DNA of 64,000 nucleotides from positions 1 to 64,000 of the forward strand of contig JAKFVD010000018.1 in the NCBI GenBank assembly GCA_021732365.1, read 5' to 3'. Both the position numbers and the translations under genes were made by a program. This stretch comes from Methylotenera sp. GTDB lineage: Bacteria > Pseudomonadota > Gammaproteobacteria > Burkholderiales > Methylophilaceae. Shown in pieces: positions 6,506-25,864 of this stretch. Within the stretch, counting starts at the first letter, position 1, and each line of letters begins with the position of its first letter. The notes under the pieces are model-generated. The model was not told where the DNA came from. It saw only the letters and a program-made list of their open reading frames with translations, and ran no database searches.

Positions 6506-6536
6506 AGACCAACTTTAGTTTTTTGAAAGTTTTACT

Positions 6537-7898
6537 TTGTCTATTGAAACAACCCCTACACTTAACTTTAACCAGTTAGGCTTAGCCGAACCTATTCTGC
6601 GTGCGATTGCGGATGCAGGTTATACCATTCCAACGCCGATTCAAGCCAAAGCCATACCTGTTGTATTAGACGGCGGCGATTTGCTGGCTGGTGCGCAAAC
6701 GGGTACTGGTAAAACTGCTGGTTTTACGTTGCCTTTGCTGCATTTATTAAACGCTAAACCCAAACAAAATAAGGCTGGGCAGCCACGCTGTTTGATGCTG
6801 ACGCCAACGCGCGAATTGGCTGCGCAGATTGAAGAATCTGTTAAAACCTATGGCAAATATCTGCAATTAAAATCGTTTGTTGTGTTTGGTGGCGTCAATA
6901 TAAGCCCACAAATTAATCGCCTTTCTAAACCAATCGATATTTTGGTAGCTACACCTGGCCGCTTATTGGATTTAGCCAATCAGCGCAAAGTGGATTTATC
7001 AGCCGTTGAGTTTTTGGTGTTAGATGAAGCGGATCGTATGTTGGATATGGGCTTTATTCGCGATATTAAAAAGCTATTGGCAATGCTGCCAAAACAGCGC
7101 CAGAATTTGCTGTTCTCAGCTACGTTCTCTGACGAAATTAAGCAATTAGCAGATGGCTTGTTGCATAAGCCTGGCTTTATTGAAGTGGCGCGCCGCAATA
7201 CCGCATCTGAAATGGTTGAGCAAACGGTGCATTTGGTGAAGCAGGCGCATAAATCTAGCCTATTGAGCTATTTGATTAAAACCAATAACTGGCAACAAGT
7301 GCTGGTGTTTACCCGCACCAAACATGGCGCGAACCGTTTGGCTGAAAAGTTGATTAAAGATGGTATTCCTGCTGCGGCGATTCATGGCAATAAAAGCCAG
7401 GGCGCGCGTACTAGGGCTTTGGCGGAATTTAAAAATGGTGATATTCCCGTTTTAGTGGCAACAGATATTGCCGCACGTGGCTTAGATATCGACCAGTTGC
7501 CGCAAGTGGTGAATTTTGAATTACCAAACGTGCCAGAAGATTATGTGCACCGTATTGGCCGTACTGGCCGCGCGGGCAGCAGCGGCGCTGCGATTTCATT
7601 GGTGGATTTTGAAGAAGCGAAATACTTAAAAGACATTGAAAAGCTGATTAAGCGTGAGATTCCAAAAGTGTCTGTTGAGGGTTTTGTGCCGCCGACAAAG
7701 ATAGAGCCAGAAGCACTGCGTGGTCCTAGAAATACGCCGCCTAAAGCAAAACAAGGCAATCGCTCGCAAGGTAATGGTCAAAAGCCTGCACAAGCCAAAC
7801 CACAAGCGAAAAAGCCAGCACCGCAAAAGCCTTTTCAGAACATGAATCAGCCGAATACAAACAAACCAGTGCATCATAGTGGTAATCGCGGGCGCTAA
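6537..7898 (+). CDS. rhlE: DEAD-box ATP-dependent RNA helicase RhlE
   Basis: Cytoplasmic RNA helicase involved in ribosome assembly and RNA turnover. The 453-residue protein contains the Q motif region (GYTIPTPIQ), Walker A AQTGTGKT at about 53-60, [18 protein letters not shown] ([14 protein letters not shown]), SAT (FSATFS) and the C-terminal [10 protein letters not shown] motif. The tail after about residue 395 is a low-complexity stretch rich in Lys, Gln, Pro and Asn, typical of RhlE RNA-binding tails. The start is TTG at 6537, giving [16 protein letters not shown], the expected beginning; no in-frame ATG fits better. Confidence 0.92.
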
Positions 7899-7972
7899 AC
7901 TTAACACGTTAAAAGTGCCGAAAATTATTGGATGCGTGACGCCTAATGATGAAGAAAGATGTATTTTAAAAA

Positions 7973-8428
7973 ATGAAAATCTGGGTGGACGCGGACGCTT
8001 GTCCAGTCGTGATTAAAGAGATTCTTTATCGTGCAGCCATGCGCACAGGCATTAACACCACTTTAGTTGCGAATGCATTTTTGCGTGTGCCGCCCTCAGC
8101 GCATATTCGCGCGGTGCATGTAGATAAAAGCTTTGATGTGGCTGACAATTACATTGTACAAGCTTTGCAGGCTGGCGATTTAGTCATTACGGCAGATATT
8201 CCATTAGCGTCTCTTGTGATTGCAAAAGGTGCGCATGCGCTTAATCCGCGCGGTGAACTCTATTCTAGCGCCAATATTGCAGAGCGCTTAGCCATGCGCG
8301 ATATGATGGATGAGTTACGCAGCCAAGGTGCAGAAATTGGTGGGCCTGCCACTTTTAATCAGGCAGACAGGCAAGCATTTGCAGCGGAACTAGACCGATT
8401 TATCGCACGTCATACTAAGAATAAATAG
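7973..8428 (+). CDS. YaiI/YqxD family (DUF188) protein
   Basis: A 151-residue conserved bacterial protein of unknown biochemical role. It starts [18 protein letters not shown], which is diagnostic for the family. Acidic residues ([16 protein letters not shown]) suggest a PIN-like nuclease-type fold, as proposed for the family. It sits 74 bases after rhlE and only 10 bases before the lipocalin gene, so it probably shares a transcript with the latter. Confidence 0.88.
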
Positions 8429-8438
8429 GATTTGATAC

Positions 8439-9005
8439 ATGCAAAAATGGTTATGGATTATTTTATGTTTTAGTCTACTTAGCTGCGCTGAGCAACAAGA
8501 CAATGTGAAAGTCGTGCAAAATATTGATGCTAATCAATATTTGGGAACATGGTATGAAATCGTGCGGCTGGATCACAGCTTTGAGCGTGATTTACAAAAC
8601 GTGACTGCACAATATATCAAAAATGAAGATGGCACGATTAAGGTGATTAACCGCGGCTTTAACCGCAAAAAAAATGAATGGAAAGAAGCCGAAGGCAAAG
8701 CACGTTTTGTTGATGCGGCCAATCCAGATGGCACTTACAGCGGCAAATTAGAAGTATCGTTTTTTGGCCCGTTTTACGCACCGTATAACATTATTGAGCT
8801 AGATAAGCCCTATTACAATTACGTAATGGTAACCAGTGGCAAGGATTATTTATGGATATTATCGCGCACACCACAATTGGGCTACCCGATTAAACAACAC
8901 CTAATTGCGCGCGCTAAAGAGCTGGGCTTTGCAACCGATGATTTGATTTACGTGCCGCAAACCACTGAAATCATCAACTATAAAGCTGGGCCGCATGTTG
9001 AATAA
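8439..9005 (+). CDS. blc: Outer-membrane lipoprotein lipocalin (Blc type)
   Basis: Bacterial lipocalin, an eight-stranded barrel that binds hydrophobic ligands such as lysophospholipids during envelope stress. The 188-residue precursor has a lipoprotein signal with lipobox LLSC (Cys16). This is followed by the lipocalin motif LGTWYEIVRLDHSFERDL and later YVMVTSGKDYLWILSRTP, both characteristic of Blc. Anchoring in the outer membrane is inferred from the family; residues after the Cys (AEQQ) do not show an Asp retention signal. A bidirectional terminator follows. Confidence 0.92.
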   Translation: MQKWLWIILCFSLLSCAEQQDNVKVVQNIDANQYLGTWYEIVRLDHSFERDLQNVTAQYIKNEDGTIKVINRGFNRKKNEWKEAEGKARFVDAANPDGTYSGKLEVSFFGPFYAPYNIIELDKPYYNYVMVTSGKDYLWILSRTPQLGYPIKQHLIARAKELGFATDDLIYVPQTTEIINYKAGPHVE

Positions 9006-9030
9006 ATTGGTTTAAAGATTGCGTGAATAA

Positions 9031-9062
9031 AAAAGCCGTTTAGTTTGCACTAAACGGCTTTT
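9031..9062. terminator. Bidirectional terminator between blc and the BON gene
   Basis: Perfect 13-base arms AAAAGCCGTTTAG / CTAAACGGCTTTT around a 6-base loop. A-rich and T-rich ends on both sides let it serve the converging genes on both strands. Confidence 0.85.
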
Positions 9063-9084
9063 GAATGGTCATGCGTTTGAATGG

Positions 9085-9753
9085 TTAACTTCTCACTTCT
9101 AAACCATTTTTAACAGATTTAACACCCTCTACTTTAGAAACCACCTCTTCGGCTTTCATTTTAGCGGCAGCGTTATCCACAAAACCACTTAAAATCACTT
9201 CGCCATCACGCGTTTCAACGCTTATTTGCAGGCTTTTTAAATCAGTTGTGCCTAAAATTTCAGCCTTAGCCTTTGCCGTAATAATGCTGTCATCAATCAC
9301 GTCACCGACTGTTCTTTTTTCAGTTTCAGGCGCTTCAGCAACAACCATTGCGTCGCCCTCATTAGTAGGAACTGCCTGGGCAGAATCAGCTGAGCTTGCT
9401 TCATTCACATCGACATTCGATTTAGCAACTACTGGCCAAGCGCCTGTTTTAAAGTAAACATATTCATCTTGGTCAATATAGCCATCGCGGTTTGCGTCGG
9501 CCTTTGCAAAAGTAGTTTTATTAAACGCTTTGCCTTTTGATGCCTCGTTTGGCAGCAATAAACCGTTACCTGTACTATCCAAAGCCGCAAACTCAACCGC
9601 TAGCGGTGATTGCCATCTGGCGTTGTTATAAATATCTGTGGTGACTTCTGCAAAAACAGTGTTTGCTGCTGTGCCCAATGTAACCGAGCCAAGCGCAAAA
9701 GTGATTGCAATAGCTAGAGGTTTAAACGTATTTTTCATGTTGGTTTTCATCAT
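9085..9753 (-). CDS. Periplasmic EF-hand + BON domain protein (paralogue 1)
   Basis: Predicted exported 222-residue protein. A Sec signal peptide covers about residues 1-36 (hydrophobic LAIAITFALGSVTLG, cleavage near VFA-EV). Two EF-hand-like calcium loops follow, DSTGNGLLLPNE (degenerate) and DANRDGYIDQDE (good). A linker of about 40 residues is next, then a C-terminal BON domain with the GEVILSGFVDNAAAK pattern. BON domains bind phospholipid and are found in OsmY-like envelope-stress proteins. It is a clear paralogue of the next gene. AGGAG precedes a doubled ATG, so the start is at 9753 or 9750. Calcium dependence is an inference. Confidence 0.85.
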   Translation of the reverse strand: MMKTNMKNTFKPLAIAITFALGSVTLGTAANTVFAEVTTDIYNNARWQSPLAVEFAALDSTGNGLLLPNEASKGKAFNKTTFAKADANRDGYIDQDEYVYFKTGAWPVVAKSNVDVNEASSADSAQAVPTNEGDAMVVAEAPETEKRTVGDVIDDSIITAKAKAEILGTTDLKSLQISVETRDGEVILSGFVDNAAAKMKAEEVVSKVEGVKSVKNGLEVRS

Positions 9754-9786
9754 ATTGCTCCTATTAAGTTGTGCAAAAATTCAATA

Positions 9787-10305
9787 TTAACTTTTAACAA
9801 CTAAGCTATTTTTAACTGATTTAACGCCCTCAATTTTTGAAACAATTGTTTCAGCTTTTACTCTTGAAAGTTCATCATCCACAAAGCCGCTTAAAATCAC
9901 ATCGCCTTTGTAAGTTTTAACACTAATTTGCAAACTTTTTAGATTTTTTTCAGCCAACAACTCTGCCTTGGCTTTAGATGTAATCACACTATCAGAGGCT
10001 ACTCTTTTCACCACTTTTTGCTGTGATGCCGATTTGTAATTAGCGTATTCTTCTTGATTCAGCGTATCGTTACGGTCGATGTCAGCACTTTCAAAATGTT
10101 TTGCAGTGAATAATTTATCTTTTGCTGCTTCAATACGTGTTAAGTTTTGGTTACTGTTAGTATCTAATTTATTAAATTCTGCTGCTAACGGCGCTTGATT
10201 TTCTTGCACTGTCTCAGCATCGTATGCAAGTGCTTGCATGTTGGTGGCGCCAAAAGCCAGTGCAATTGCGAATGTTGCAGATTTTAAAGGTGTAGTGATG
10301 TTCAT
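9787..10305 (-). CDS. Periplasmic EF-hand + BON domain protein (paralogue 2)
   Basis: A 172-residue exported protein with signal peptide, two EF-hand-like loops (DTNSNQNLTRIE and DIDRNDTLNQEE) and a C-terminal BON domain ending in VEGVKSVKN. It shares the layout and much of the C-terminal sequence with its neighbour but has a shorter linker. The start is ATG 10305, preceded by GAGGAG at a 7-base distance. The longer frame beginning at 10320 would place that ribosome-binding site inside the coding region. The two paralogues lie 33 bases apart and are probably co-transcribed. Confidence 0.85.
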   Translation of the reverse strand: MNITTPLKSATFAIALAFGATNMQALAYDAETVQENQAPLAAEFNKLDTNSNQNLTRIEAAKDKLFTAKHFESADIDRNDTLNQEEYANYKSASQQKVVKRVASDSVITSKAKAELLAEKNLKSLQISVKTYKGDVILSGFVDDELSRVKAETIVSKIEGVKSVKNSLVVKS

Positions 10306-10397
10306 GGTAAAGCTCCTCATAAGTTAAGTTAAGAGGCAATACCAAACATTGATTGAATGATTTTGCCATGAGTGCATGTTACGCATTTGGCAAAACC

Positions 10398-10448
10398 AAA
10401 AAAGCCCAGCTTTGACTGATTATGCTGTCAGAAACAGACTACAGCTGG
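10398..10448 (-). terminator. Terminator of the histidine kinase gene
   Basis: Read on the minus strand, CCAGCT (10448-10443) pairs with AGCTGG (10411-10406), with an inner CTGA/TCAG pairing. It is followed by TTTTTT at 10403-10398. Confidence 0.6.
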
Positions 10449-10484
10449 ACTAAGATAGCTGGACTAAGATAGCTGGACTAAAAT
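10443..10484 (+). repeat. Three tandem 14-bp repeats
   Basis: AGCTGGACTAAGAT occurs at 10443-10456 and 10457-10470, with a third copy ending AAAT at 10471-10484. The block lies just beyond the 3' end of the histidine kinase gene, and the first copy supplies one arm of its terminator. Confidence 0.9.
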
Positions 10485-10500
10485 TTTGAAGTAAAAGCAA

Positions 10501-11973
10501 TTAAACGGCCGCAACATCCAATGGAATTAAAGCACGAATAAGCACGCCTTTTTCTGGCTCGCTCATCATTTCAAAATGCCCGCCAATTGCCAACACGCGG
10601 TGACGCATGCCAGATAAGCCATGGGTATTGCCGTCTAGCGCATTCAGATCTACGCCAACGCCGTTATCTTCTATTTCCAGTTTTAAATAATGGCTATCAA
10701 CCATAATATCCACTGCGATAGTGGTTGCTTTTGCATACTTGTTTGCATTATTCAAGGTCTCTTGCACAATGCGATACGCCACTAGGCTAATTGTTTCGTT
10801 GAGTTTAGTATTTTCATCAGGCAGATTTAACCTTAATTGCCACTGGTTACGCTCAGCCGCATCGTTAATCAGCGATTGCAACGCAGGCCAAAAACCAAAT
10901 GTAGACAACATCGATGGATGCAGTTCTTGCACGATATGACGCTGATATTGAATGCCCTGATCGACATAACTGCTGGTTTTGCGCAATTTATCCACCACTT
11001 CAGTCGACACATCGGGGGCAACAGCTTTCATCTTTTTCATCACCCAAGCAATATCCATTTTGGTTGCAGTAAAAATTGAGCCTAACTCATCATGCAACTC
11101 GCGTGATAACTTTTGTCGTTCTCTTTCTACGTCTGCCTGGTAATCTAATGCCAGACTGCGCAGTAATTTAGTTTGCTGCTGTAGTTTTTCTTCATAGACT
11201 GCATTTTCTCTTTGTACGCGCAACTGCAGATCGCTCTTAATGGCAATCTCTGCCAGTAATTGTTTAATGACCAATACAACTAACCATATCAATATTAAAG
11301 CGCCAGCAAAAATCGAAATGCGTGCAATTAAAATGGTGTCTAAACGCGCCTTAATTTTTGCGTTCAAACTATCGTTTTGTTTTTTAATCAGAGAGTTGGT
11401 GTGATCCATGAATTTCTTCATTTCAACCAAACCCTCATCCAGATTCACCACCTGCCTTGCCTCTTGCTCATTGCCCGATTTAACTAAGTTAATAGTAACT
11501 TTCATTTCTGCTGCTTTGGATTCTAAACTGGCATAAATAATTTTCACCCATTCGCGGCCTCTTATTTCTTCTTCGCCCACCGATGTGCGAATCACCAAGT
11601 TTTCAATTTGTCTGATATTTTCTCTGGCCTCATTTAATGCATCATTAAATGGTTCAATATAACCTGATCTGCCAGTATAGAGATAGCCACGCTGCGCGCT
11701 TTCGGCTTTGTATAAATTGGTTTTTAAATCATGTAACAGAACAATGTTTGATCTGACTTGGCCAATCACGACATCTTGCCGACCAATCGATAGTATCCAG
11801 TTGTCGCTGTATAAAACCGATATCATCGTAATAAGCAAAGCCACTGCAAGCATGGCTATTGTGTGGCCGCCCAGCAAAGTGATCAGCCGCTCAAAACCAC
11901 GCCAGCAACGGTCAATCATCTTCTTGGTTTTTTCTACTACTATGTGGGTAAACTTTTGTAGATTTTCATTCAA
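10501..11973 (-). CDS. CHASE3-type sensor histidine kinase (NarX/HisKA_3 class)
   Basis: Membrane sensor kinase of 490 residues. TM1 is at about 37-57. A periplasmic helical CHASE3-like sensor with the ESAQRGYLYTG motif (91-101) follows, then TM2 at about 215-237 and a coiled coil. The HisKA_3 dimerisation domain has phospho-acceptor His294 (SRELHDELGS). The HATPase domain has an N-box (QETLNNA, 404-410), G1 DNGVG (436-440) and G2 HGLSGM (451-456). HisKA_3 kinases pair with NarL/LuxR regulators; the one at 13.6 kb is the likely partner. The start used here is TTG 11973; ATG 11919 is an alternative. Confidence 0.88.
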   Translation of the reverse strand: MNENLQKFTHIVVEKTKKMIDRCWRGFERLITLLGGHTIAMLAVALLITMISVLYSDNWILSIGRQDVVIGQVRSNIVLLHDLKTNLYKAESAQRGYLYTGRSGYIEPFNDALNEARENIRQIENLVIRTSVGEEEIRGREWVKIIYASLESKAAEMKVTINLVKSGNEQEARQVVNLDEGLVEMKKFMDHTNSLIKKQNDSLNAKIKARLDTILIARISIFAGALILIWLVVLVIKQLLAEIAIKSDLQLRVQRENAVYEEKLQQQTKLLRSLALDYQADVERERQKLSRELHDELGSIFTATKMDIAWVMKKMKAVAPDVSTEVVDKLRKTSSYVDQGIQYQRHIVQELHPSMLSTFGFWPALQSLINDAAERNQWQLRLNLPDENTKLNETISLVAYRIVQETLNNANKYAKATTIAVDIMVDSHYLKLEIEDNGVGVDLNALDGNTHGLSGMRHRVLAIGGHFEMMSEPEKGVLIRALIPLDVAAV

Positions 11974-12098
11974 AACGTGTAATCACTTTCTGACATCAAA
12001 ATCAGATTATAGCTTCTAAAACAGTTGCCTGCGGCTGGGTTATGGTACGAGTTGCTATTATTTTACATTTATTATTACATTTCCATTAAGGACTAATC

Positions 12099-12272
12099 AT
12101 GCTGTATTACGCACTCGTTTTTTTCGTTATCGCCATTGTTGCAGGTTTATTAGGATTTAAAGGTGTGGAATCTGGCGCGACCAAAATCGCAAAATTTTTC
12201 TTCTTTATATTTATTGTATTGGCCTTATTGGTTGTAGGCGCCGCAGTGCTTGGCATTAAGTTGATATTTTAA
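12099..12272 (+). CDS. DUF1328 small membrane protein (copy 1)
   Basis: A 57-residue protein starting MLYYALVFFVIAIVAGLLGF, with two hydrophobic helices separated by KGVESGATKIAK. This is the DUF1328 (YtjA) signature. Function is unknown; the family is common in stress-induced loci. ATG 12099 follows AAGGA at a 7-base distance. It is the first of two tandem copies. Confidence 0.85.
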   Translation: MLYYALVFFVIAIVAGLLGFKGVESGATKIAKFFFFIFIVLALLVVGAAVLGIKLIF

Positions 12273-12407
12273 AAATTAAAATGCTCTGTCAGCGCATTCT
12301 GACAAGAGTTTCAGAAAAAAGCCGCTGATTGTAAGCAAGCCGCCTGCGTATAGTTGCAACTGTGCATTTGCATTTGTTATTACACGTACTTAATTAGGAG
12401 GTTCAAG

Positions 12408-12566
12408 ATGCTGCATTACACCGTTGTATTTTTTGTTATCGCAATTATTGCCGCTGTGTTTGGTTTTGGCGGCATCTCTGCTGGCGCAACTGAAATTGCA
12501 AAAATCTTATTTTTTGTGTTTTTAATTGTGACCATCATTTCGTTCTTAATGGGTAGAAAACGTTAA
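12408..12566 (+). CDS. DUF1328 small membrane protein (copy 2)
   Basis: A 52-residue protein starting [20 protein letters not shown], with two helices around a [12 protein letters not shown] loop and a basic end (MGRKRR-like, ...LMGRKR). It is a paralogue of the preceding gene. ATG 12408 is preceded by a perfect AGGAGG at 12396-12401 with a 6-base gap; the longer frame from 12354 is rejected on this ground. Confidence 0.88.
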
Positions 12567-16266: not shown

Positions 16267-17127
16267 TTACTTAGCAACCTTAGTTAATTTAAAGCCTGCT
16301 TTTTTAAACGCTTCAATCAATCCTGTTTTGCCTGCCAAATGCGATGCGCCAACCGCGATAAATACTGGCTTTTCATTCGCCACCTTAATGCTACCCTCTG
16401 CCATCACCACATTGCGCTCATCTAATAATTTAGTCTTCATTTTTGCCCAAATTGGTTTAGGCAACATGCCGCCTGTGATTTTTTCATCTAATGCACTAAT
16501 TTTGTCAGAGTCACCTTCTAAATAAGCAGCAATTAATCTCTCAAAATCCGCTTCTTTTTGTTCTTGCGTGCGTTTCAACACGGCGCGCAACATCACTAAT
16601 TGCTCTTCACGACTAAAATCATCCATCACGCCAAAATGCGTTTTGGCACTTTCTAAACCCTCAACATCTTTTAACAAATCTTCAGAAGTTGTCATCAAAA
16701 TATTATCCTGCGCAAACGGTGTTTGCGGCTTGGGCAAATCAAACACCACCGCCAGCAGCCAAGGCTTCATCTGCATCGCCGCATCTAAATGCATCACATG
16801 AAAATCCGCTAATTCACGCACTTGTTCAAGCTCTTGCTCAGTTAGCATTTCGCGCAAAGTAGCGTCTTTCATCAACAGTACAGTCGGGTCATTGTTATCC
16901 TGCTTAGTCTCCATCACAAACGTATCCACGCTTTTGATCGCATTAATCACATTCGGCGAAAAACTGGTGATGCGATTATCATCGGTATGCATCGTACCAA
17001 ATAGATAACTGACAATACCAGTAGGTGACTCCATTTTCCAAAACAAGCCTTTTTCGGTAGCTTGCACTTGTGATGTGACAAAAAAACTAAGCAATATCAG
17101 AAACTTAAATATTATAGGCAAACGCAT
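16267..17127 (-). CDS. TraB/GumN family protein
   Basis: A 286-residue exported protein with a signal peptide at about 1-23 (cleavage near VQA-TE). The mature part starts GLFWKMESPTGIVSYLFGTMHTDD, with the GT.H motif of the Tiki/TraB/GumN metalloprotease-like superfamily. It ends with VGASHLAGKTGLIEAFKKAGF, containing the second conserved His (GASHL). Peptidase activity is inferred from the superfamily only. Confidence 0.86.
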   Translation of the reverse strand: MRLPIIFKFLILLSFFVTSQVQATEKGLFWKMESPTGIVSYLFGTMHTDDNRITSFSPNVINAIKSVDTFVMETKQDNNDPTVLLMKDATLREMLTEQELEQVRELADFHVMHLDAAMQMKPWLLAVVFDLPKPQTPFAQDNILMTTSEDLLKDVEGLESAKTHFGVMDDFSREEQLVMLRAVLKRTQEQKEADFERLIAAYLEGDSDKISALDEKITGGMLPKPIWAKMKTKLLDERNVVMAEGSIKVANEKPVFIAVGASHLAGKTGLIEAFKKAGFKLTKVAK

Positions 17128-17255
17128 TTATATTTTTTCCTGTTGGTTAATGGTTAAGTATGCATTATGAACCGCAAACACAAAGGCAAGTTCAATCATG
17201 CATACTTTTATGTACTTCACCAGCTTAAACGAAACTTATTCGTTAAGTTGTAATC

Positions 17256-17274
17256 TGTAAACTATCAGTTTACA
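17256..17274 (+). promoter_or_regulatory. Palindromic operator of higBA
   Basis: TGTAAACT-ATC-AGTTTACA, a perfect 8+3+8 palindrome ending 7 bases before the higB ATG. Its position and symmetry fit autoregulation by the HigA helix-turn-helix dimer. Confidence 0.65.
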
Positions 17275-17281
17275 ATCAATA

Positions 17282-17560
17282 ATGATAAAAAGTTTTAAGC
17301 ATAAAGGGTTAAAAGATTTTTTTGAAACTGGCAATAAGGCAGGAATCCAATCGCATCATGCAGAAAAACTAAAACTGCAATTAGCTTTGCTAGATAGTGC
17401 AACATCAAAAGACGATGTAAATGTGCCCGCATGGCGATTGCACGCACTAAAAGGTCATTTAAAAGATCATTTATCCATTACAGTAAATGGAAACTGGCGT
17501 TTGACTTTTAAGTTTATAAATCAAGATGTTGAACTAGTCGATTATCAAGATTATCACTAA
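17282..17560 (+). CDS. higB: HigB-type toxin (RelE/ParE superfamily)
   Basis: A 92-residue type II toxin, a ribosome-dependent mRNA endonuclease in the HigB family. It begins MIKSFKHKGLKDFFETG and ends with WRLTFKFINQDVELVDYQDYH. Basic residues (Lys/Arg in NWRLTF) and the terminal DYH pattern are typical. The toxin precedes its antitoxin, the reversed order characteristic of higBA. The antitoxin gene follows after 11 bases. Confidence 0.9.
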   Translation: MIKSFKHKGLKDFFETGNKAGIQSHHAEKLKLQLALLDSATSKDDVNVPAWRLHALKGHLKDHLSITVNGNWRLTFKFINQDVELVDYQDYH

Positions 17561-17571
17561 AGGAATAAATA

Positions 17572-17850
17572 ATGAGCAACATGCACAATCCGCCACATCC
17601 TGGCCACGTATTGCGTGAATGGATACCTGAAAATATGAGCGTAACAGCTGCTGCAAAAGCGCTGAAAATTTCTCGTGTAAGCTTATCTAAAATACTGAAT
17701 GCAAATACCAACATTAGCGCAGAAATGGCCATTCGATTATCACAATGGCTTGGCACCTCATCTGAGGTATGGCTTAGTATGCAAGTAAAATACGATTTGT
17801 GGCAAGCCGAACAAAAAACTACTGTTCATATAGAAAGATTAGCGGCTTAA
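17572..17850 (+). CDS. higA: HigA-type antitoxin (XRE helix-turn-helix)
   Basis: A 92-residue antitoxin and autorepressor that neutralises HigB. It has the family start PPHPGHVLREW followed by an HTH of the form VTAAAKALKISRVSLSKILN, then MAIRLSQWLGTSSEVWLSMQ. It is expected to bind the palindrome upstream of higB. Confidence 0.92.
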   Translation: MSNMHNPPHPGHVLREWIPENMSVTAAAKALKISRVSLSKILNANTNISAEMAIRLSQWLGTSSEVWLSMQVKYDLWQAEQKTTVHIERLAA

Positions 17851-17888
17851 CTTAAGCAATTAAAATCTCCACACCCATCCCATCGCGT

Positions 17889-19019
17889 TCAGCGATACAC
17901 CTTCAACACCAAATTAACTGTTGAGCTCACGCCAAAATGCTTAAATATCGCCTGAATATGTTCAGCCACCGTGTCTTCTTTTATCTCTAATAACTTAGCA
18001 ATCTCTTTGCGCACGCTGCCTTTAAGCAGCAGCCATGTAATCATTAATCTTGCAGGGCTTAAATCTTCTTGGCTGAGCTTAATGGCAATATGGCATGGGT
18101 AAGGTTGCATTTGCTGTAAGTTAATCGCAACAGTTTCCAGTTCTTGGTCGTAGCTATATTTCACAATAAACTCGCCCCAATAGCAGTTGCGTGTTTCGGT
18201 AAAGTGTTGATTTTGAATCGCTTGTTTAATGCCGAGTTTGCAGGTTTGTTTAATCAAATTATCTAAGCAATCATCAGCATCAAACTGCATAGGCGTTTCA
18301 GAGCTTCTTGTCATCATCCATAAAATTTGGTGTGCCGTTAAATTACAGAATTTTCGATTTAACTTTTTATCAACTATAACTATGCCTAAATCATAAGTTC
18401 GCTTTGTTGGAATGTCGCTTTGAATAGGTGTTTTAAAAGCATTAGGAAGCAAGGTCGAGACTGCTCTTAATATCTCAACCTCTTTGGCAGCAAATGCCCC
18501 TTTGTCGTAAGAACGCATCAGCAGGAATGCGCCATAAGGTCTAGTACCATCATGCACTACAAAATCCACCAAATGGCGCATATTGATGCGGCCATAGTGA
18601 TTCATAAAGTGATCGGAATCGTAAAAGGTATCGTTTTGAAAACGCTGAATATTGCCAGCACTAGCGCCCGCCATCACATTCTCTTTAAATGACAGCCAAT
18701 TGCCTTTAGATTCATTCTGAAAACGAATGCTAGATTGCAATATATCCGCAGATAAGAAATATGGCGTTTCCGCATACGCATCAATCATATCGCCTGTAGC
18801 GTTAGACCAACAAAACCCTGCAATATCAATCGGCATAATTTTGCGTAACAGCATAGGCACAATGCGTACCACATGGTGGCTATTAATACCACTGCTGGCC
18901 AACATACCAATGTTAGTTAATACATTGCGCTGAATAGGGTTAGCCAAGCGCACAATATCGCGAATGGTTTTTAGTTGGGCGACCGATTGATAGTCGCTAA
19001 GCCTTACCTCTGCATCCAT
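17889..19019 (-). CDS. LuxR-type transcriptional regulator with GAF-like N-terminus
   Basis: A 376-residue regulator. The C-terminal part (about 316-376) is a LuxR helix-turn-helix: LSPARLMITWLLLKGSVRKEIAKLLEIKEDTVAEHIQAIFKHFG. The N-terminal ~200 residues look like a GAF-type sensor, with VHDGTRPYGAFLLMRSYDKGAFAAKE near 150-175. No phospho-acceptor receiver is present. It is divergent from the accessory cassette that starts at 19.2 kb and is a candidate regulator of it, on position only. Confidence 0.75.
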   Translation of the reverse strand: MDAEVRLSDYQSVAQLKTIRDIVRLANPIQRNVLTNIGMLASSGINSHHVVRIVPMLLRKIMPIDIAGFCWSNATGDMIDAYAETPYFLSADILQSSIRFQNESKGNWLSFKENVMAGASAGNIQRFQNDTFYDSDHFMNHYGRINMRHLVDFVVHDGTRPYGAFLLMRSYDKGAFAAKEVEILRAVSTLLPNAFKTPIQSDIPTKRTYDLGIVIVDKKLNRKFCNLTAHQILWMMTRSSETPMQFDADDCLDNLIKQTCKLGIKQAIQNQHFTETRNCYWGEFIVKYSYDQELETVAINLQQMQPYPCHIAIKLSQEDLSPARLMITWLLLKGSVRKEIAKLLEIKEDTVAEHIQAIFKHFGVSSTVNLVLKVYR

Positions 19020-19101
19020 ACAACACCTTTTTTATTGTTGTTGCACTGCATTCATTTAAGTAAGTTTACTAACTAAATATTACTACACAAATCATTTAAA
19101 G

Positions 19102-19129
19102 ATACCCCCCAACAGTGGGGTATTTTTAT
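19102..19129 (+). terminator. Terminator-like hairpin ahead of the accessory cassette
   Basis: Arms ATACCCC (19102-19108) and GGGGTAT (19117-19123) followed by TTTTTA. Its orientation fits termination on the plus strand, yet the nearest upstream gene is on the minus strand. It could be a leader attenuator or an insulator for the cassette. Confidence 0.6.
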
Positions 19130-19225
19130 TTCTAAATATCAATAGAATAACTATACATACATTAAAGGCAAAATCGTGTGTTAATCGCTGAAATAATGAA
19201 CTGCATAAAATTTTTGAATGAGTTA

Positions 19226-20290
19226 ATGATGAAAAATGGACGAAGTGTGAAACTAAATAAAAAATACTTTTTTGCAATCTTAACCGCATTTGCAGTTCAG
19301 ATAATAATCGGTGTGAATTTGGCAAACGCAATGCCATGTGAAGAGTTCTTAAAGGAAACCTGGGACAAAACTGAATTTACGACAAACAAAGCAGGCAAAA
19401 AAGTAAAGGAAATATACTTCGACTCATATGCTGGTTATTGGCAGGTAGAAACATTTGACGAATTTAAGAAGATTGCACCAGAAGTTCCAACTAAATATGC
19501 AAGAACTTGGTTGGATTATGAAGATGGTATCCCTTTGTCTGAAAGCCAGAAAGTAAAACAATGTGTATCGATTGCAGACACCCGTAGAAATCAAGAGGGA
19601 CGCTCAAGGTTTCAACACTGCGCTCTCAATTATCTATATTCAAATAGATGTGATGCATCGGCATTTGCTAGTGGTGTTTCAGGACAGAGTGCTTCTTCAA
19701 ACCAATCCTCAAACTCTAGCACATCTAGCCAATCCAATAAAAAGACTAATCGGCAGTCTGCTAATAATCAGTCTTCATCATCAGCTACAAGTGACCTGAG
19801 CAACAAAAGTAGGGATCAACTTATTGATATTGCCAGCAGTGCTCGTGAGCGTGGGGATTACGCTAAATCTTATGCTGCATCACTACAGCTGGCTAAAGAC
19901 CCTGATCCTGAAATATCACGCCAAGCATTGCGTAATGCAGGCTTCCATCTCAAAGAAGGACAGGGGGTGAAGCAAAATTTATTTGAGGCACACCGTCTTT
20001 TCCAGCAAGCAGCCAGCATGGGAGACCTTAGTGCACACTCTCACTTATGTTCAAATTTTATGGATGGCACTGGAGTTGCCGAGAATCACAGAACAGCACT
20101 TGAATATTGTTTGTTCGCAGCTGAAAGAGGCCATATGACCGCTCAAGCCAATCTTGCTTGGCTGTATGAAAATGGCAACGGCATTCAGCGGAGTCAAAAG
20201 TTATCAGACCAATGGACATGTAAAGCCGCCGCACAAGGAGAAGAAGCCGCTGTAGGTAATTTGAAAAAACAAAATATTAGTTGTAATTAG
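19226..20290 (+). CDS. Secreted Sel1-repeat protein
   Basis: A 354-residue predicted exported protein and first gene of a five-gene cassette. A signal peptide is visible (KLNKKYFFAILTAFAVQIII, cleavage near ANA-MP). The N-terminal ~110-residue domain containing cysteines is of unknown type. A Ser/Asn/Gln-rich linker of about 60 residues follows, then about three Sel1/TPR-like repeats at the C-terminus (KQNLFEAHRLFQQAASMGDL..., RTALEYCLFAAERGHMTAQ..., ending with AAAQGEEAAVGNLK). Sel1 repeats mediate protein binding. The frame is open from GTG 19178, but starts at 19226/19229 give a normal signal peptide. Confidence 0.75.
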   Translation: MMKNGRSVKLNKKYFFAILTAFAVQIIIGVNLANAMPCEEFLKETWDKTEFTTNKAGKKVKEIYFDSYAGYWQVETFDEFKKIAPEVPTKYARTWLDYEDGIPLSESQKVKQCVSIADTRRNQEGRSRFQHCALNYLYSNRCDASAFASGVSGQSASSNQSSNSSTSSQSNKKTNRQSANNQSSSSATSDLSNKSRDQLIDIASSARERGDYAKSYAASLQLAKDPDPEISRQALRNAGFHLKEGQGVKQNLFEAHRLFQQAASMGDLSAHSHLCSNFMDGTGVAENHRTALEYCLFAAERGHMTAQANLAWLYENGNGIQRSQKLSDQWTCKAAAQGEEAAVGNLKKQNISCN

Positions 20291-20314
20291 CAAGATTTTT
20301 TAAAAGAACAATAT

Positions 20315-21094
20315 ATGCAAATATTAAAACTAGGGTCAACTGGTCACATAGTTGTGCAATGGCAGCAGTTTCTTCGTGGTCAAAAGTTTATGTTGCAAGA
20401 AACTGCTGTTTTTGACAATGCTACACATGCCGCAACCGCTGGATTCCAGAAAAAATACAAGCTAGATATAGATGGCGTTGTTGGCAACCAAACACTAGGT
20501 AAGGCTGCTATGCTAGGTTTTGAGCTTGTCGATTACTCCACCACACAATCATCATTTCCACTATTACCAAGCTTTCCACCGCTAATTGGTAACAATGCAA
20601 GACAAAGTATGTTTGGCCCACTTGTCGCTACACCAAGCCCAACAACCAAAAACCCAGAAAAAATTAAAATCACGAATGGCTGGGAGAGTCAAAATTTAAT
20701 TAGAACAGTTATTCCACAGTTACACGGTATTAAAGGCGCACCTGCTAATGGTGCTATTTGGTTTAACCGTGAAGTTGCGCATCAATTAATTGGTCTGTGG
20801 GCTGCTTGGGAACAAGCAGGGTTGCTTTCTAAAATATTGACGTTTGATGGTGCTTATAACCCAAGATATATTAGAGGTGGAGCAAAAAATCAGACACTTT
20901 CAAATCATGCTTTTGCAACGGCTTTTGATATTAACTATGCGTGGAACAAACTAGGTGCTGAACCAGCCACTTTTGGTCAAAAAGGCTGTGTTTATGAGTT
21001 GGTTCCAATTGCGCATAACTTTGGGTTTTATTGGGGTGGACATTTTAGTACCAGAAAAGATGGTATGCATTTTGAAGTGGCAAGAATAATTTAA
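20315..21094 (+). CDS. Peptidoglycan-binding M15-family D,D-carboxypeptidase/endopeptidase
   Basis: A 259-residue predicted cell-wall hydrolase. Residues 1-66 are a PG_binding_1 domain (LKLGSTGHIVVQWQQFL ... LDIDGVVGNQTLG). After a Pro-rich linker, residues ~120-259 are an M15 (VanY/phage L-Ala-D-Glu peptidase-like) domain. Its zinc ligands are His198 and Asp205 (SNHAFATAFDIN) and His252 (GMHFEV). No signal peptide is seen, which is like phage endolysins and unlike housekeeping carboxypeptidases. It lies 24 bases after the Sel1 gene. Confidence 0.83.
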   Translation: MQILKLGSTGHIVVQWQQFLRGQKFMLQETAVFDNATHAATAGFQKKYKLDIDGVVGNQTLGKAAMLGFELVDYSTTQSSFPLLPSFPPLIGNNARQSMFGPLVATPSPTTKNPEKIKITNGWESQNLIRTVIPQLHGIKGAPANGAIWFNREVAHQLIGLWAAWEQAGLLSKILTFDGAYNPRYIRGGAKNQTLSNHAFATAFDINYAWNKLGAEPATFGQKGCVYELVPIAHNFGFYWGGHFSTRKDGMHFEVARII

Positions 21095-21127
21095 CTGGTT
21101 TGTATTTTAATAAAAGTTAGGTTAATA

Positions 21128-22042
21128 ATGACTGATTCCAATGACTTAAAACCTACGTTCTCGCTAACCTTAATCGAAAAATCGGTTGGTATATTGATAA
21201 TGATTATTACAGGATGGACTGCGTTTCAGTCGAGTACTGTAAAAGATACGATTGCCCTTCAAGGGTCATCTATTGAAAGCCTTAAAGCAGAAATTGCCAA
21301 AAGTGCCAATGAGCGTGAAACCAGAAAGCTTAATCATGAAATAACAATAAAAATATTTGAAGAGGTTTCAAATATATACAAAACTCCTAATCAGACGCCA
21401 GATATACTACTTAATCGACTGTTTGCTGTAGCAGCTCTAATTGAGGCTGTGCCAGATATTGAAGTTCGTAAATCGTTAGCCTCAGCAGTAAAAGCAGCTG
21501 CAGATAACGCTTCTGCAACAGTAATAAAACCAACAGACGCCGTAATATTAAAAACAGAAGCGGTTAAAAATAAAGTAGACCTTACAATATTTAGAGCAGA
21601 TCAAAATGATTCCGAATCCTCTAGATTAAGAGATGAAAAATCATTATCAGTAGCAGCACAATCTTCAAATATTAATGACCCGAAATGGTCAAACTACGAT
21701 TTTGATTTTTTTTGGTGTGAAACGGCAGACAATCCAGAGGCTGCTAAAAACGCTGCTGAATCAGCTTTTAATCTTAAAAACTTAGATCAATCTGCTACTG
21801 GTCGTTGGCGGGTAAGAAAGCTACCTGCAGAAATAAATATTAAGCCTGGATATAGAAAAGAGGGATATTTAATCAATGTGAGTTCTGACGATGAGCAGAA
21901 AATAGCAAATGTATTAAGCAGTCTTTTGAAGCAACAAGAGATTCCCTCGAAAGACTTTAACTTTGTGATAAAAAAAGTCTCAAACTCTACTCCATGGTAC
22001 ATAAGTGTTTTTATGTGCCCGTCTGCGCTGAACGAACACTAA
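21128..22042 (+). CDS. Single-TM hypothetical protein of the cassette
   Basis: Function not recognised. The 304-residue protein has one N-terminal membrane helix at about 19-37 (SVGILIMIITGWTAF). A charged helical, probably coiled-coil region (ESLKAEIAKSANERETRKLNHE) is followed by a helical segment to about residue 145 and a separate C-terminal alpha/beta region of about 110 residues. That region contains WCETADNPEAAKNAAESAF and ends in WYISVFMCP. The C-terminal part has the look of a SPOR-like or ferredoxin-like binding fold, which is an impression only. It sits 19 bases before the patatin gene. Confidence 0.65.
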   Translation: MTDSNDLKPTFSLTLIEKSVGILIMIITGWTAFQSSTVKDTIALQGSSIESLKAEIAKSANERETRKLNHEITIKIFEEVSNIYKTPNQTPDILLNRLFAVAALIEAVPDIEVRKSLASAVKAAADNASATVIKPTDAVILKTEAVKNKVDLTIFRADQNDSESSRLRDEKSLSVAAQSSNINDPKWSNYDFDFFWCETADNPEAAKNAAESAFNLKNLDQSATGRWRVRKLPAEINIKPGYRKEGYLINVSSDDEQKIANVLSSLLKQQEIPSKDFNFVIKKVSNSTPWYISVFMCPSALNEH

Positions 22043-22061
22043 TTCCTAAGGGTAGATCAAG

Positions 22062-24620
22062 ATGTTTTGCGATACAGACAATGTGGAGAAATCATTTAGT
22101 TTTAAAGAGATATGGGATAAAGAAAAGAAACTTATCGACACGAAAAAGGAAAAGGTACATTCTGTAGATGATAAACAAGCTAATGCAAAAAGCGAACAAC
22201 AGCTTATCGGACTAGCATTTTCTGGTGGTGGTATACGCAGTGCTACTATTAATTTGGGTATTTTACAGTCGCTAGCTAAGCACGATCTAATTAATTGTTT
22301 TGATTACTTGTCCACTGTATCTGGTGGCGGTTATATCGGAGCATATCTTTCCGCAATGTTAAGCAAAAACAAGTGGGATGCGCAGGCTATTACTAGAGGT
22401 CTCGATCCGTCTGCAACAAATAGTAAACTAAATGCAAATGAAGATAAGTTAACTCCTAGTGAGATGATTAAACAGGATATTAACTGGCTTCGCAGTTACA
22501 GCAACTACCTCACACCTAAGGCAGGCATATTTAGCACAGATACCTTGGCGGCATTTTCACAGTGGTTGTGTAATAGCCTTGTCAATCAAGTGCTGCTTGC
22601 ATCAAGTCTGTTGATAATATTTATTTTGGTGAACTGGTTTAGCTACTCTGCAGATTTTTTTGCTTTTAGCTATGCCTTAACATTTTTAGAACACATACGT
22701 AATTTTTTGATGAACCTGTCATTGCCAAACACGCATACTGCATCTACATTTATAAATTACATAATTAATTGTTCAGAGTGTTATTCACCGCAAAAAATTC
22801 AACTATTTGTTGGCGCACTATTACTTACGTTTGGTTTGTTGGGGGCTTATAAACTATCAATTAAGCACCCTAAAACTTGTCCTTTCAAAATAAATTGGAA
22901 ATGGATTTGCGCTGCTGGCGGGCTAGGGTCAGTCTTATTAGTTTTGTATTCACCCATTAATGCTTGTGAAACTTTATGTTTTTTAAAAAGCTTAGTCGCT
23001 CCACCCTCTCAGCCATCAGGGGAAAGCATTGCCAAACTAAATCTTGCGCTTGGTTTAGGTGTGCCATTATTTATAGGTTTTATCTATCTCGCAATAATGA
23101 CAATAATGGGGTTTGGCGGGCGTAGCATTCCCTCTCCAATACGTGAGTGGTGGCATCGTATGGGTGGCGTGACTATTGCTGTAACACTTACTTGGTTTGC
23201 AGTATTTTTCTTCGCGGTATACTTTCCTTTATTGATTAGTTATTTGGACTTGAGCAGTCTAGACATTACTGTCACTAGTGTTGCAAGCTACTTATTTGCT
23301 TTTGCAAGCGCAAAGATAGGACAAAGCAAGGTTTCAAGCGCCACCGATGCCTCTGCCCCTGCTAATAGATTATTAAAATTTCTACCATATTTTATAATTG
23401 TGCTTATTTTTACTGGCTTTGGATATGCCAGCCACCAGATTTATCACTCAAACTACACACGATTTTGGTTTATTAGCCTGTTAATTATTTTTTTAGTTGG
23501 TAATCGCCGATTTGACATCAATATATTCTCACTACACAATTTTTATCGTAACCGTCTTACCCGCTGCTACTTGGGCGCAACTAACAACGAACGCCTACCG
23601 AATTCATTTACAGGTTTTGATGATAAAGATGATCTAAGATTCGCTGAGTTAAAAAACCAAAGACCTATCCATATCATCAATACTGCACTCAACATCAGTG
23701 ATGGTTCAGAACTGGCTTGGCAACAACGTAAAGCAGCCTCATTTACATTTACGCCCTGCTATTCTGGTTTTCAGCTACCCGACGGAAGTGGCGGCTATCG
23801 CAAAACAGATCAATATGCTGACAAAAAAGGTGGTCCTATGTTAGGCAGCCTAATCGCTGTTAGTGGTGCTGCAGTTAGCCCTAACATGGGTTACCACACT
23901 AACCCTGTAATGGCTTTCATCATGACTCTATTTAACGCAAGGCTTGGTCGCTGGTTTGGTAATCCAAGCAAAGATAGCAAAACTTGGCAACATATTAGTC
24001 CTAAAAATAACTTTGCACATCTACTTAATGAGTTGTTTATAAATACCAACGCTAAATCACCTTACCTATATTTATCGGATGGCGGCCACTTTGAGAACTT
24101 AGGCATATATGAATTAATAAGACGAAAATGCAAACTGATTGTAGCGATTGATGCTGGCGAAGATGGGAATTACCAATTTGATGACCTGGGCAATGCGATA
24201 CGTAAATGCGAAACAGACCTTGATGTGCGTATCAAGTTTGATGACTTAAATAACTTACACCCCAGCAAACAAAGTGTGTATGGCAGCTTTAAACATTCAG
24301 AAAAGCATTATGCAATTGGTGAAATTTTGTATAGCAAAAAAGACCCAAAACAAGAAAATGGAATTCTGCTGTATATCAAAAGCTCACTCACTGGTACAGA
24401 ACCAGCAGACTTAATTAATTACAAGCTGCAAGAACCTACTTTCCCGCACCACTCTACTGTAGATCAGTTTTTTGATGAGTCTCAATTTGAGAGCTACAGG
24501 CGATTAGGGGAGCATATTGCTAAAGCTGTAATGTTTGATATTGAAAAAAGTAAAAACTCAAAAGCGAAAAAAAACTTAGCAAGAGACACATACCACATTA
24601 TAGAAACAGCAAAAAAATAA
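22062..24620 (+). CDS. Polytopic membrane patatin-like phospholipase
   Basis: An 852-residue lipase-like protein. A soluble N-terminal part carries the oxyanion-hole motif SGGGIRS (54-60) and a nucleophile elbow TVSGGGYIG with Ser87 as the likely nucleophile; the usual first Gly of GxSxG is replaced by Thr85. Several hydrophobic segments between about residues 175 and 490 form a multi-pass membrane domain. The catalytic fold then resumes, with the dyad motif SDGGHFENLGIYE containing Asp673. The predicted activity is hydrolysis of membrane phospholipid; substrate and trigger are unknown. It is the largest gene of the cassette. Confidence 0.82.
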   Translation: MFCDTDNVEKSFSFKEIWDKEKKLIDTKKEKVHSVDDKQANAKSEQQLIGLAFSGGGIRSATINLGILQSLAKHDLINCFDYLSTVSGGGYIGAYLSAMLSKNKWDAQAITRGLDPSATNSKLNANEDKLTPSEMIKQDINWLRSYSNYLTPKAGIFSTDTLAAFSQWLCNSLVNQVLLASSLLIIFILVNWFSYSADFFAFSYALTFLEHIRNFLMNLSLPNTHTASTFINYIINCSECYSPQKIQLFVGALLLTFGLLGAYKLSIKHPKTCPFKINWKWICAAGGLGSVLLVLYSPINACETLCFLKSLVAPPSQPSGESIAKLNLALGLGVPLFIGFIYLAIMTIMGFGGRSIPSPIREWWHRMGGVTIAVTLTWFAVFFFAVYFPLLISYLDLSSLDITVTSVASYLFAFASAKIGQSKVSSATDASAPANRLLKFLPYFIIVLIFTGFGYASHQIYHSNYTRFWFISLLIIFLVGNRRFDINIFSLHNFYRNRLTRCYLGATNNERLPNSFTGFDDKDDLRFAELKNQRPIHIINTALNISDGSELAWQQRKAASFTFTPCYSGFQLPDGSGGYRKTDQYADKKGGPMLGSLIAVSGAAVSPNMGYHTNPVMAFIMTLFNARLGRWFGNPSKDSKTWQHISPKNNFAHLLNELFINTNAKSPYLYLSDGGHFENLGIYELIRRKCKLIVAIDAGEDGNYQFDDLGNAIRKCETDLDVRIKFDDLNNLHPSKQSVYGSFKHSEKHYAIGEILYSKKDPKQENGILLYIKSSLTGTEPADLINYKLQEPTFPHHSTVDQFFDESQFESYRRLGEHIAKAVMFDIEKSKNSKAKKNLARDTYHIIETAKK

Positions 24621-24682
24621 GCCAGTTTTTATTCTGTACTTATATGAATTAACAAGCTTAATAATTCAAAAAAGGATTCAAC

Positions 24683-25843
24683 ATGAAAAATAATATTAAC
24701 CTATTAATTATTATCTCTTGCGCTATTAGCTTATCTGCTTGTGGCACATATGGGCCTGAAAAAACATTATTTGGTGAAAATCGTGTTAACACAGCCTCAG
24801 CTAACCAGATTTTAGATAAAAATTTTGAAAGTTTCAGTGATATAGGGCTTATTCAACTACTTGATCCCGAACGTGCAGTGATTACACACAACAGTTTTAA
24901 TGAAAATTATTACGACAAACTCTCATCTGTTCAAAAAACAGAACTACTAAACCTAGCTTTTTTAAAAGCAAATAACTCTACCAAGAGCTCAGCTCGTCGC
25001 TCCCAAATTCAAGATCGCTTAATTGCCGCCTCAAACCAACGCTGTAACCTTTATAGCACTTACCTAACTCGCCTCAGCAATTTCAATAATAGTATTTTCG
25101 GAACGGCCACAACGATACTTGGCGGTGCAGGTGCAATTGTCACAGGAGAAAAAGCTGCTAGAGTATTGTCTGGATTAGCTGGCATTACAAGTGGCACCCG
25201 TGCTGAGCTTAATCAAGCAATCTTTGATAATGTTGCAAGTAGCATTATTATTCCAGGCATTGAAAAAAATCGTTCAGTTATACTTAAAAGTATTTTGGTT
25301 AAACGCTCTGAAGACATATCAACCTATACTGTTGAAGCTGCAATTGCAGATGCTATTCACTATCACGGGGCATGTAACATTAACGCTGGGATTGATTATG
25401 CACATAAAAGCTTACAAACAACTGATGATGTCAGCATTAAAAAATTCAATGAAACACTTGCTAATTTAGGGGTTGCAAGAAGTCTATCTTTATCAAGTGA
25501 TTTTGCATCTATCTCATCCTTGGTTATTGCTAAGGATGTACTTAATGAATACTCACAGAAACTTGAAAAACTCAAAAATCTTAGTACAAGCTATCCAGTG
25601 TTATTATCAACAATATCTAAGCTAGAAAGTGACATTAAAGGTGATTTATCGGAGGAGGCAACAAACATTGATGACGCACTAAAGCCTATTCTATTTAGTT
25701 ATTCATCAACCAAAAGTGTGGATAAACTGTATTACTTCAATCAGCTACAGGCACAGCAGGGTACTGCACTTACTTTTGAGAGTAAAACAAAAAAACTACT
25801 TCAATCAGTTCAATTAGAACTTGACAAATTAACGAAAAGTTAA
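24683..25843 (+). CDS. Lipoprotein of the cassette (hypothetical)
   Basis: Function not recognised. The 386-residue precursor has a lipoprotein signal with lipobox LSAC (Cys20). A Gly-rich hydrophobic stretch (ATTILGGAGAIVTGEKAARVLSGLAGI) lies near residues 140-170 and could insert in a membrane. The remainder is mainly helical with coiled-coil propensity. It closes the cassette, 62 bases after the patatin gene, and converges with ygiQ with no obvious terminator between them. Confidence 0.7.
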   Translation: MKNNINLLIIISCAISLSACGTYGPEKTLFGENRVNTASANQILDKNFESFSDIGLIQLLDPERAVITHNSFNENYYDKLSSVQKTELLNLAFLKANNSTKSSARRSQIQDRLIAASNQRCNLYSTYLTRLSNFNNSIFGTATTILGGAGAIVTGEKAARVLSGLAGITSGTRAELNQAIFDNVASSIIIPGIEKNRSVILKSILVKRSEDISTYTVEAAIADAIHYHGACNINAGIDYAHKSLQTTDDVSIKKFNETLANLGVARSLSLSSDFASISSLVIAKDVLNEYSQKLEKLKNLSTSYPVLLSTISKLESDIKGDLSEEATNIDDALKPILFSYSSTKSVDKLYYFNQLQAQQGTALTFESKTKKLLQSVQLELDKLTKS

Positions 25844-25864
25844 AGTTGAGTCGATATTAATAGC

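Follow-up and report, generated by a model that had tools for sequence, protein, structure and literature searches.

The lysis cassettes of phages infecting Gram-negative bacteria are composed of an endolysin, a holin and a pair of spanins (i- and o-spanin). For Wolbachia phage WO, one report describes a predicted lytic cassette in which a patatin accompanies a repeat protein and a coiled-coil protein with one N-terminal transmembrane (TM) segment, homologues of the latter lying beside a GH108 lysozyme (PMC9203015). For the type VI secretion system (T6SS), two further reports present a permuted NlpC/P60 enzyme as a phospholipase effector (PMC12994826) and a Sel1 protein as a tested immunity protein that protected against a T6SS toxin (PMC7108748). 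The subject of the present analysis is a cassette of five genes, P0001 to P0005, at positions 19102-25860 of a 64,000-nucleotide stretch of Methylotenera sp. DNA (assembly GCA_021732365.1, contig JAKFVD010000018.1, positions 1 to 64,000; hereafter the window, and its source the own genome), which encodes a secreted Sel1-repeat protein, an M15 peptidase of endolysin type, a coiled-coil protein, a patatin and a lipoprotein. No description of a patatin-endolysin-lipoprotein combination was found in the titles, abstract openings and passages of the open-licence literature. The cassette is read here, at a probability of roughly 0.38, as a modular device for breaching the cell's own envelope, of the self-lysis type, and patatin, lipoprotein-family and endolysin-type genes recur together in mixed combinations.

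The five open reading frames form one run on the + strand with intergenic gaps of 24, 33, 19 and 62 bases, as the initial annotation had reported, and the signal peptide, zinc ligands, patatin motifs and lipobox that it had named were all located in the translations. P0001 (19196-20290, +) carries a signal peptide, a Ser/Asn/Gln-rich linker and three Sel1 stretches (Pfam, 2.2e-15), with an ANA-M motif at residue 43; its start codon is uncertain, the candidates being GTG 19178, ATG 19196 or later ATGs. P0002 (20315-21094, +) has an endolysin-like architecture, PG_binding_1 (3.2e-07) followed by Peptidase_M15_4 (3e-13), with the zinc-ligand motifs SNHAFATAFD at residue 196 and MHFE at residue 251, and it matches PHROG lysis/endolysin families (1.5e-12). 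By a simple hydropathy test it has no hydrophobic N-terminus, for which reason it is probably a cytoplasmic protein made without a Sec signal. P0005 (24683-25843, +) is a lipoprotein with the lipobox LSACG at residue 17, whose family shares a Gly-rich central segment and nearly invariant Cys; comparison with Pfam, NCBIfam and PHROG gave nothing noteworthy for it, and in Pfam nothing above cut-off.

The fourth gene, P0004 (22062-24620, +), encodes a patatin/PLA2-type lipase (Patatin, 2.5e-08; a PLA2_B match at 0.0015 lies under that family's cut-off) with the motifs SGGGIRSA at residue 54, STVSGGG at 84 and SDGGH at 672. In an alignment of 21 patatins including that of the window, the family signature of GGGxR oxyanion hole, Ser nucleophile and Asp of DGG (S54-G57, R59, S87 and D673-G675) is invariant, and strong conservation marks residues 54-90, with the oxyanion hole and serine, and about 483-816, the aspartate half. 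Between these catalytic halves lies a middle region with six predicted TM segments within residues 172-455, which varies widely in sequence and length. P0003 (21128-22042, +), for which Pfam assigned no family, appears to be a membrane-anchored helical or coiled-coil protein. The single TM segment initially ascribed to it is plausible and not certain, as two segments only just pass the hydropathy threshold of 1.6 (1.66 at residues 11-29 and 1.61 at 93-111). The relative from genome G238 (locus L101), as called, has no such segment. Six aligned members of its family share a pair of invariant cysteines in the C-terminal domain (C197 and C297 in P0003). Structure predictions of P0003 alone (mean predicted local distance difference test, pLDDT, of 39.7) and of P0004 with one relative (mean pLDDT 32.5) were too poor to use; the predicted strand/helix order of P0003 may be compatible with a SPOR-like fold, the model being too weak to claim the fold.

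Compared with the lysis cassettes of Gram-negative phages, the locus is alike in placing a leaderless endolysin of PG_binding and M15 architecture in one run with a coiled-coil protein that is putatively membrane-anchored and with a lipoprotein, but its proteins are larger, a TM-patatin and a Sel1 protein are added, and no phage genes were recognised beside it. By Pfam, PHROG and hydropathy, P0002 qualifies as an endolysin of the leaderless or signal-arrest-release (SAR) kind. The nearest published counterpart is the predicted cassette of phage WO (PMC9203015; PMC3173496), and the likeness is one of layout by description: a patatin beside a one-TM coiled-coil protein, here P0003 lying 19 bases upstream of P0004 with its marginal TM prediction, together with a helical-repeat protein, the whole being proposed there for cell lysis. 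The WO cassette, itself only predicted, differs in that it belongs to a phage and adjoins the tail genes there, includes a holin-like protein of less than 150 amino acids and contains neither endolysin nor lipoprotein, whereas the patatin of the window is split by TM segments, chromosomal and without phage matches.

TM-patatins occur in 22/200 genomes of the order and 9/120 of the family, the own genome being counted in both, and 36 loci outside the window were examined. A patatin match was present in 43 plasmid records, of which 4 were fetched. A wall hydrolase or peptidoglycan-binding partner is adjacent or fused at six of them (L063, L049, L073, L084, L074 and L029), and a second lipid hydrolase or a PhoD_2 protein adjoins the patatin at ten (L063-L068, L049, L074, L076 and L090). 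The wall partners include a VanY protein in G293 (L049, below the Pfam cut-off), a GH19 and PG_binding protein in G193, a muramidase preceding the split patatin of a Hymenobacter plasmid, and PG_binding_1 fused to the patatin itself in G045 (2.3e-11) and in G030 (L084, below cut-off). Ten wall-hydrolase or PG-binding proteins were put to the same simple test, and nine had no hydrophobic N-terminus, the exception being the Hymenobacter muramidase; PHROG endolysin families were matched by four of five scanned neighbours, all save the L049 VanY.

This neighbourhood was compared with genes lying further off. A hidden Markov model (HMM) of PG_binding, seeded with six stretches from P0002, L073, L074, L084 (two) and L111, found 3/71 patatin-adjacent genes against 1/426 genes two or more places away (Fisher p 0.010), a figure in which L073, L074 and L084 are refound by construction and L063 was no seed. 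Among 90 control genes further away in the same loci (scanned out of 120 sampled at random), none of these partner families was among the 25 commonest, which reach down to families of two members and not to rarer ones. The scan of the patatin neighbours covered 45 of 46 genes, the one omitted being the first of the two that encode the Hymenobacter patatin; two of these 45 match RoxA-like cytochrome c, the members not being named in the output. Some further features of the patatin loci were noted. In the Hymenobacter plasmid (L029, 7113-10780), two separate genes each encode a part of the TM-patatin, and the N-acetylmuramidase gene lies just upstream. The patatins of L074, L081 and L084 have C-terminal extensions resembling, by eye, acyl/acetyltransferase domains, and Pfam named no domain in those of L074 and L084. 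Also by eye, a pair of genes upstream of the L072 patatin (4750-7701) resembles two genes near that of L087.

A second line of evidence comes from the lipoprotein. The P0005 family was found in 10/399 genomes of the order and, by profile, in 24/398 of the phylum (own genome in both), 13 of these 24 being weak hits in one genus. Of 33 hits outside the window, 23 were fetched, and the ten weak ones left out all belong to genus g247. At eight of the 23 fetched loci, a gene for a papain or for a hydrolase of wall or lipid lies on the same strand within three genes: a GDSL-like protein in L043 (match below the Pfam cut-off), a permuted papain C92 in L044, a zinc phospholipase C encoded by the third gene upstream in L047, an Amidase_3 directly after the lipoprotein gene in L048 (G032), a papain and a VanY, the latter below the Pfam cut-off, in L050, and a PG_binding and SLT protein after the lipoprotein relative in L111 (G043). 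In L049 (G293), the TM-patatin, the VanY (below cut-off) and, next after, a Tle1-type lipase stand in one run with the lipoprotein gene, and in L105 (G681, 140-2111), from another lineage of the phylum, the TM-patatin is followed by two tandem P0005-family lipoproteins. A patatin near a P0005-family gene in two loci would be expected by chance with a probability of 7e-6 to 1.5e-5 for 20 to 30 loci at an assumed gene density.

Partners of the patatin loci and of the lipoprotein loci are, moreover, related to each other. Identity is 79% between the VanY proteins of L049, beside a patatin, and of L050, where no patatin match was found. For the papains, it is 62% between patatin locus L070 and lipoprotein locus L050, and 46% between L048 and L050; for the GDSL proteins, it is 47% between lipoprotein locus L043 and patatin locus L076. 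These families common to both kinds of loci (VanY/M15, papain, GDSL) are the strongest sign that patatin and lipoprotein may belong to one functional guild.

The rarer members were also followed. P0003 relatives were found in 5/399 genomes of the order including this one and in 1/239 of the phylum, itself; the relative in G238 (L101) follows a leaderless N-acetylmuramidase, the only one of five P0003 loci outside the window with an adjoining wall hydrolase, and by tblastn none of the five was matched by any of the other four cassette proteins. For P0001, a single relative was seen at E 1e-3 among the fetched loci, the scope of that search: it is weak and lies in L088 on the strand opposite to the patatin. 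The initial annotation held that five genes never found together in other genomes would be mere chance neighbours. Partial sets do occur elsewhere, in G293, G681, G340 and G238, while the exact set of five was found only here, and chance does not appear to have brought the five together.

The cassette lies in a site of insertion. Relative to eight congeners, the inserted segment spans 17065-25856, its edges being taken from an alignment with G475, and the homologous site holds a TraB/GumN-like gene and a YgiQ-type gene side by side. Both flanking genes were found in eight of the 14 other congeners searched and were adjacent in 8/8, with their protein matches 52-273 bases apart; in the window, 8.7 kb by DNA alignment separates them and holds, besides the cassette, a HigB/helix-turn-helix (HTH) pair and a LuxR-type gene. 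In all eight congeners that can be judged the slot stands empty, and the cassette is therefore dispensable. Repeats near the edges of the insertion, at most a 12-base AT-rich direct and an 8-base inverted one, were not convincing. The claim that the cassette is more AT-rich than its surroundings was borne out: G+C is 0.378 for 19102-25860, lower than in all 573 windows of the same length taken every 100 bases across the window (mean 0.414, sd 0.0135, minimum 0.3782), which makes the cassette the most AT-rich stretch of its length there. G+C at third codon positions (GC3) is 0.25-0.34 in the five genes against 0.386-0.505 in 15 other listed genes, with HigB (0.237) and HigA (0.344) as exceptions among the non-cassette genes.

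The same slot is occupied by a patatin in a second genus of the family, g111, where this holds for all six patatin-bearing genomes found (L063-L068; flanking TraB matches at 57-65% and YgiQ matches at 79-81% identity). Its companions there are PhoD_2 in L063-L066 and a Tle1-type lipase in L067 and L068, and in L063 (G340) a leaderless M15 and PG_binding gene lies 3 bases upstream of the patatin. The product of that gene is not closely related to P0002 (29% over 59 residues, E 0.058), so the M15 function at this slot would have been either recruited twice or diverged beyond recognition. In a tree of 21 patatins including three of the six same-slot ones, the patatin of the window is sister to these three (100/99), and a clade of six patatins of the family contains it (96/99, the bootstrap being not fully settled). 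From the common slot and the grouping in the tree, the patatin looks like an old occupant whose partners have turned over. A patatin 40% identical to P0004 is present in another setting in congener G497 (L069).

The toxin-antitoxin pair and the LuxR regulator adjoining the cassette were confirmed as a HigB-like toxin with an HTH antitoxin (17282-17850, +), within the same insertion, and a LuxR/GerE-type regulator (17889-19019, -) divergent from the cassette. Neither the pair (at E 1e-5) nor the LuxR gene had a match in the other fetched loci, and they are for this reason taken as neighbours and not as shown components. The regulator has a host-like GC3 of 0.414 though its neighbours are AT-rich, and it is a possible controller of the cassette. 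A terminator-like hairpin (19107-19120, +) followed by T-rich sequence lies 5' of the first cassette gene with no + strand gene directly upstream, and is possibly a leader or attenuator. Scans for promoters and terminators gave 27 and 8 hits where shuffles gave 27.4 and 7.3, and as a whole they do not exceed chance.

In the envelope-breach reading, what is observed is the co-orientation of the genes, the intact catalytic motifs, the leaderless wall hydrolase, the membrane-inserted lipid hydrolase, the lipoprotein and the recurrence in mixed combinations; the steps of action that may be inferred from them are all conditional. Upon expression of the operon, a patatin lodged in the inner membrane would strip acyl chains from phospholipids and make the membrane leaky, through which the cytoplasmic M15 endolysin could reach the wall without a Sec signal. 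P0003 and P0005 might link or weaken the inner and outer membranes, in the manner of phage holins and spanins, and the periplasmic Sel1 protein may regulate or guard the enzymes. Both the endolysin and a second lipid hydrolase would be swappable parts, and a swappable endolysin role would explain why M15, VanY, GH19, muramidase, SLT or amidase domains are met in relatives.

Several observations weigh against this reading. The complete set was seen only in the window, and a search of the fetched loci at E 1e-3, to which it was confined, yielded no P0002 relative; what recurs is thus functions and folds more than one conserved gene set. No adjacent or fused wall hydrolase or peptidoglycan-binding domain was found at 30 of the 36 TM-patatin loci, and 15 of the 23 P0005-family loci (L041, L045, L046, L051, L106-L110 and L112-L117) had no hydrolase neighbour by reading of the translations, to which no Pfam scan was added. 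Pairwise tblastn at E 1e-3 recovers ten of these 23 loci (L041, L043-L046, L048, L105, L107, L108 and L115), and in four of the ten (L043, L044, L048 and L105) a hydrolase adjoins. The membership of L047, L049 and L050 stands at E 1.6e-11, 2.4e-8 and 5.9e-6 and that of L111 at 4.1e-21 by profile, and these four are distant members that carry much of the linkage. The patatin had no match among 50,697 phage records. Neither P0003 nor P0004 matches a Pfam or PHROG holin family, a non-homologous functional holin being possible, and the marginal-TM coiled-coil protein and the lipoprotein have no spanin homology and are far larger than typical spanins. Lastly, the partners PhoD_2 and papain have no obvious role in lysis.

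Another possible, if doubtful, explanation is a bank of effector and immunity genes, whereby the leaderless hydrolases would be exported toxins and P0001, P0003 and P0005 periplasmic immunity proteins. Like the loci of T6SS lipase effectors (Tle1 and others), the cassette combines lipid and wall hydrolases with a Sel1 protein and periplasmic or lipoprotein partners. Toxin-type folds recur at the patatin and lipoprotein loci (Tle1-type lipase with three members, in L049 and L067 among others; C92 in L044; GDSL; Lipase_3), the turnover of partners within one slot fits polymorphic toxins, and the NlpC/P60 phospholipase effector and the protective Sel1 protein (PMC12994826, PMC7108748) offer precedents. 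On the other hand, no VgrG, PAAR or Hcp is among the Pfam matches of the cassette, and the own genome (99.98% complete as given) gave no match to VipB (PF05943), CIS_tube (PF19266) or Phage_sheath_1C (PF17482), so no such machine was seen for the cassette to serve. Six predicted TM segments, which make the patatin membrane-integral by prediction, are unusual for an exported effector, and the P0005 family, being shared across loci with differing enzymes, is ill-suited to a specific immunity protein.

Injection machines were nonetheless met in two of the other loci. In L048 (G032, 219-12499), a contractile injection cluster has two sheath genes, a CIS_tube/LysM gene and, by eye, spike genes; it also holds a P0005-family lipoprotein gene directly before that of the leaderless amidase and, by comparison, a papain-type gene and a C92-like gene. 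In L072, beyond one opposite-strand gene downstream of the patatin, the next genes encode a transglutaminase-like protein and a Phage_base_V spike. Particles of contractile injection systems are usually released by lysis, and the lipoprotein-amidase pair of L048 counts in favour of the envelope-breach reading. The resemblance of the cassette to this extracellular contractile injection system (eCIS) lies in the lipoprotein-amidase pair with its papain and C92-like protein, and the difference in the own genome having no CIS_tube or Phage_sheath_1C match. CIS_tube is no commoner with the patatin, being present in 2/32 patatin genomes against 5/48 others, 4 of the 48 being untested for patatin, which also counts against the effector reading. 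Plain membership in a T6SS effector locus was rejected on the missing VipB match, and eCIS cargo on the missing tube and sheath matches and these frequencies. A prophage origin was also set aside: the patatin had no phage match, P0002 matched eight phage records only partially, none covering over 80% of the query, and peptide patterns of P0005 turned up nothing in viral contigs. Nor was the setting that of a phage or tailocin, given the same patatin result, the absence of a Phage_sheath_1C match in the genome and window reading frames that are chromosomal by eye.

Envelope maintenance or remodelling, namely a stress-induced turnover of lipid and peptidoglycan without killing, perhaps with recovery of phosphate, is rather unlikely. 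It would accommodate the PhoD_2 phosphatase that follows the patatin in four same-slot genomes, the retention of the patatin in one slot in two genera and the acyl/acetyltransferase-like extensions of L074, L081 and L084 (by eye), but not so well the slot empty in 8/8 congeners, the low G+C and the patchy spread. Leaderless endolysin-type enzymes are, besides, not the usual exported enzymes of wall maintenance.

It is improbable that only the patatin, the M15-type enzyme and the lipoprotein belong together, with the Sel1 and coiled-coil genes present by chance or hitch-hiking in a variable site. Sel1 was indeed near a patatin only in L088, and the P0003 loci outside the window (0/5 matching other cassette proteins, 1/5 with a wall hydrolase beside) agree with such a partial set, yet the two genes share the tight same-strand spacing of 19-33 bases and the low GC3, and the G238 relative of P0003 also follows a leaderless wall hydrolase. 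Antiphage abortive infection with the patatin as membrane effector is highly improbable, for although patatins are effectors of cyclic-oligonucleotide-based antiphage signalling systems (CBASS) and the insertion is accessory and carries a toxin-antitoxin pair, no sensor or nucleotide-signalling gene was recognised in it, no described defence family was matched, and the defence role first suggested found no backing in PADLOC-DB, where up to E 1 the patatin, M15, Sel1 and lipoprotein had no hit and the sole matches were Cas6 models to P0003 (E 0.017 and 0.028).

Taken together with the loci of other genomes, the envelope-breach reading can be extended to a proposal that is doubtful as it stands: a widespread, host-encoded and hitherto undescribed class of envelope-breach devices with interchangeable parts, these being a split patatin embedded in the membrane, a leaderless endolysin that can be swapped and a lipoprotein of the P0005 family, would serve self-lysis, and in at least one genome the lipoprotein-endolysin pair would serve an injection system. 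If this is true, free-living bacteria carry lysis modules that are not of phage, in which a membrane phospholipase takes the place of the holin and the endolysin can be exchanged. Such modules would explain the release of cytoplasmic cargo or protein particles by cells without obvious phage genes, the orphan families P0003 and P0005 would gain a testable role, and a recurrent, unnamed family of patatins would become interpretable.

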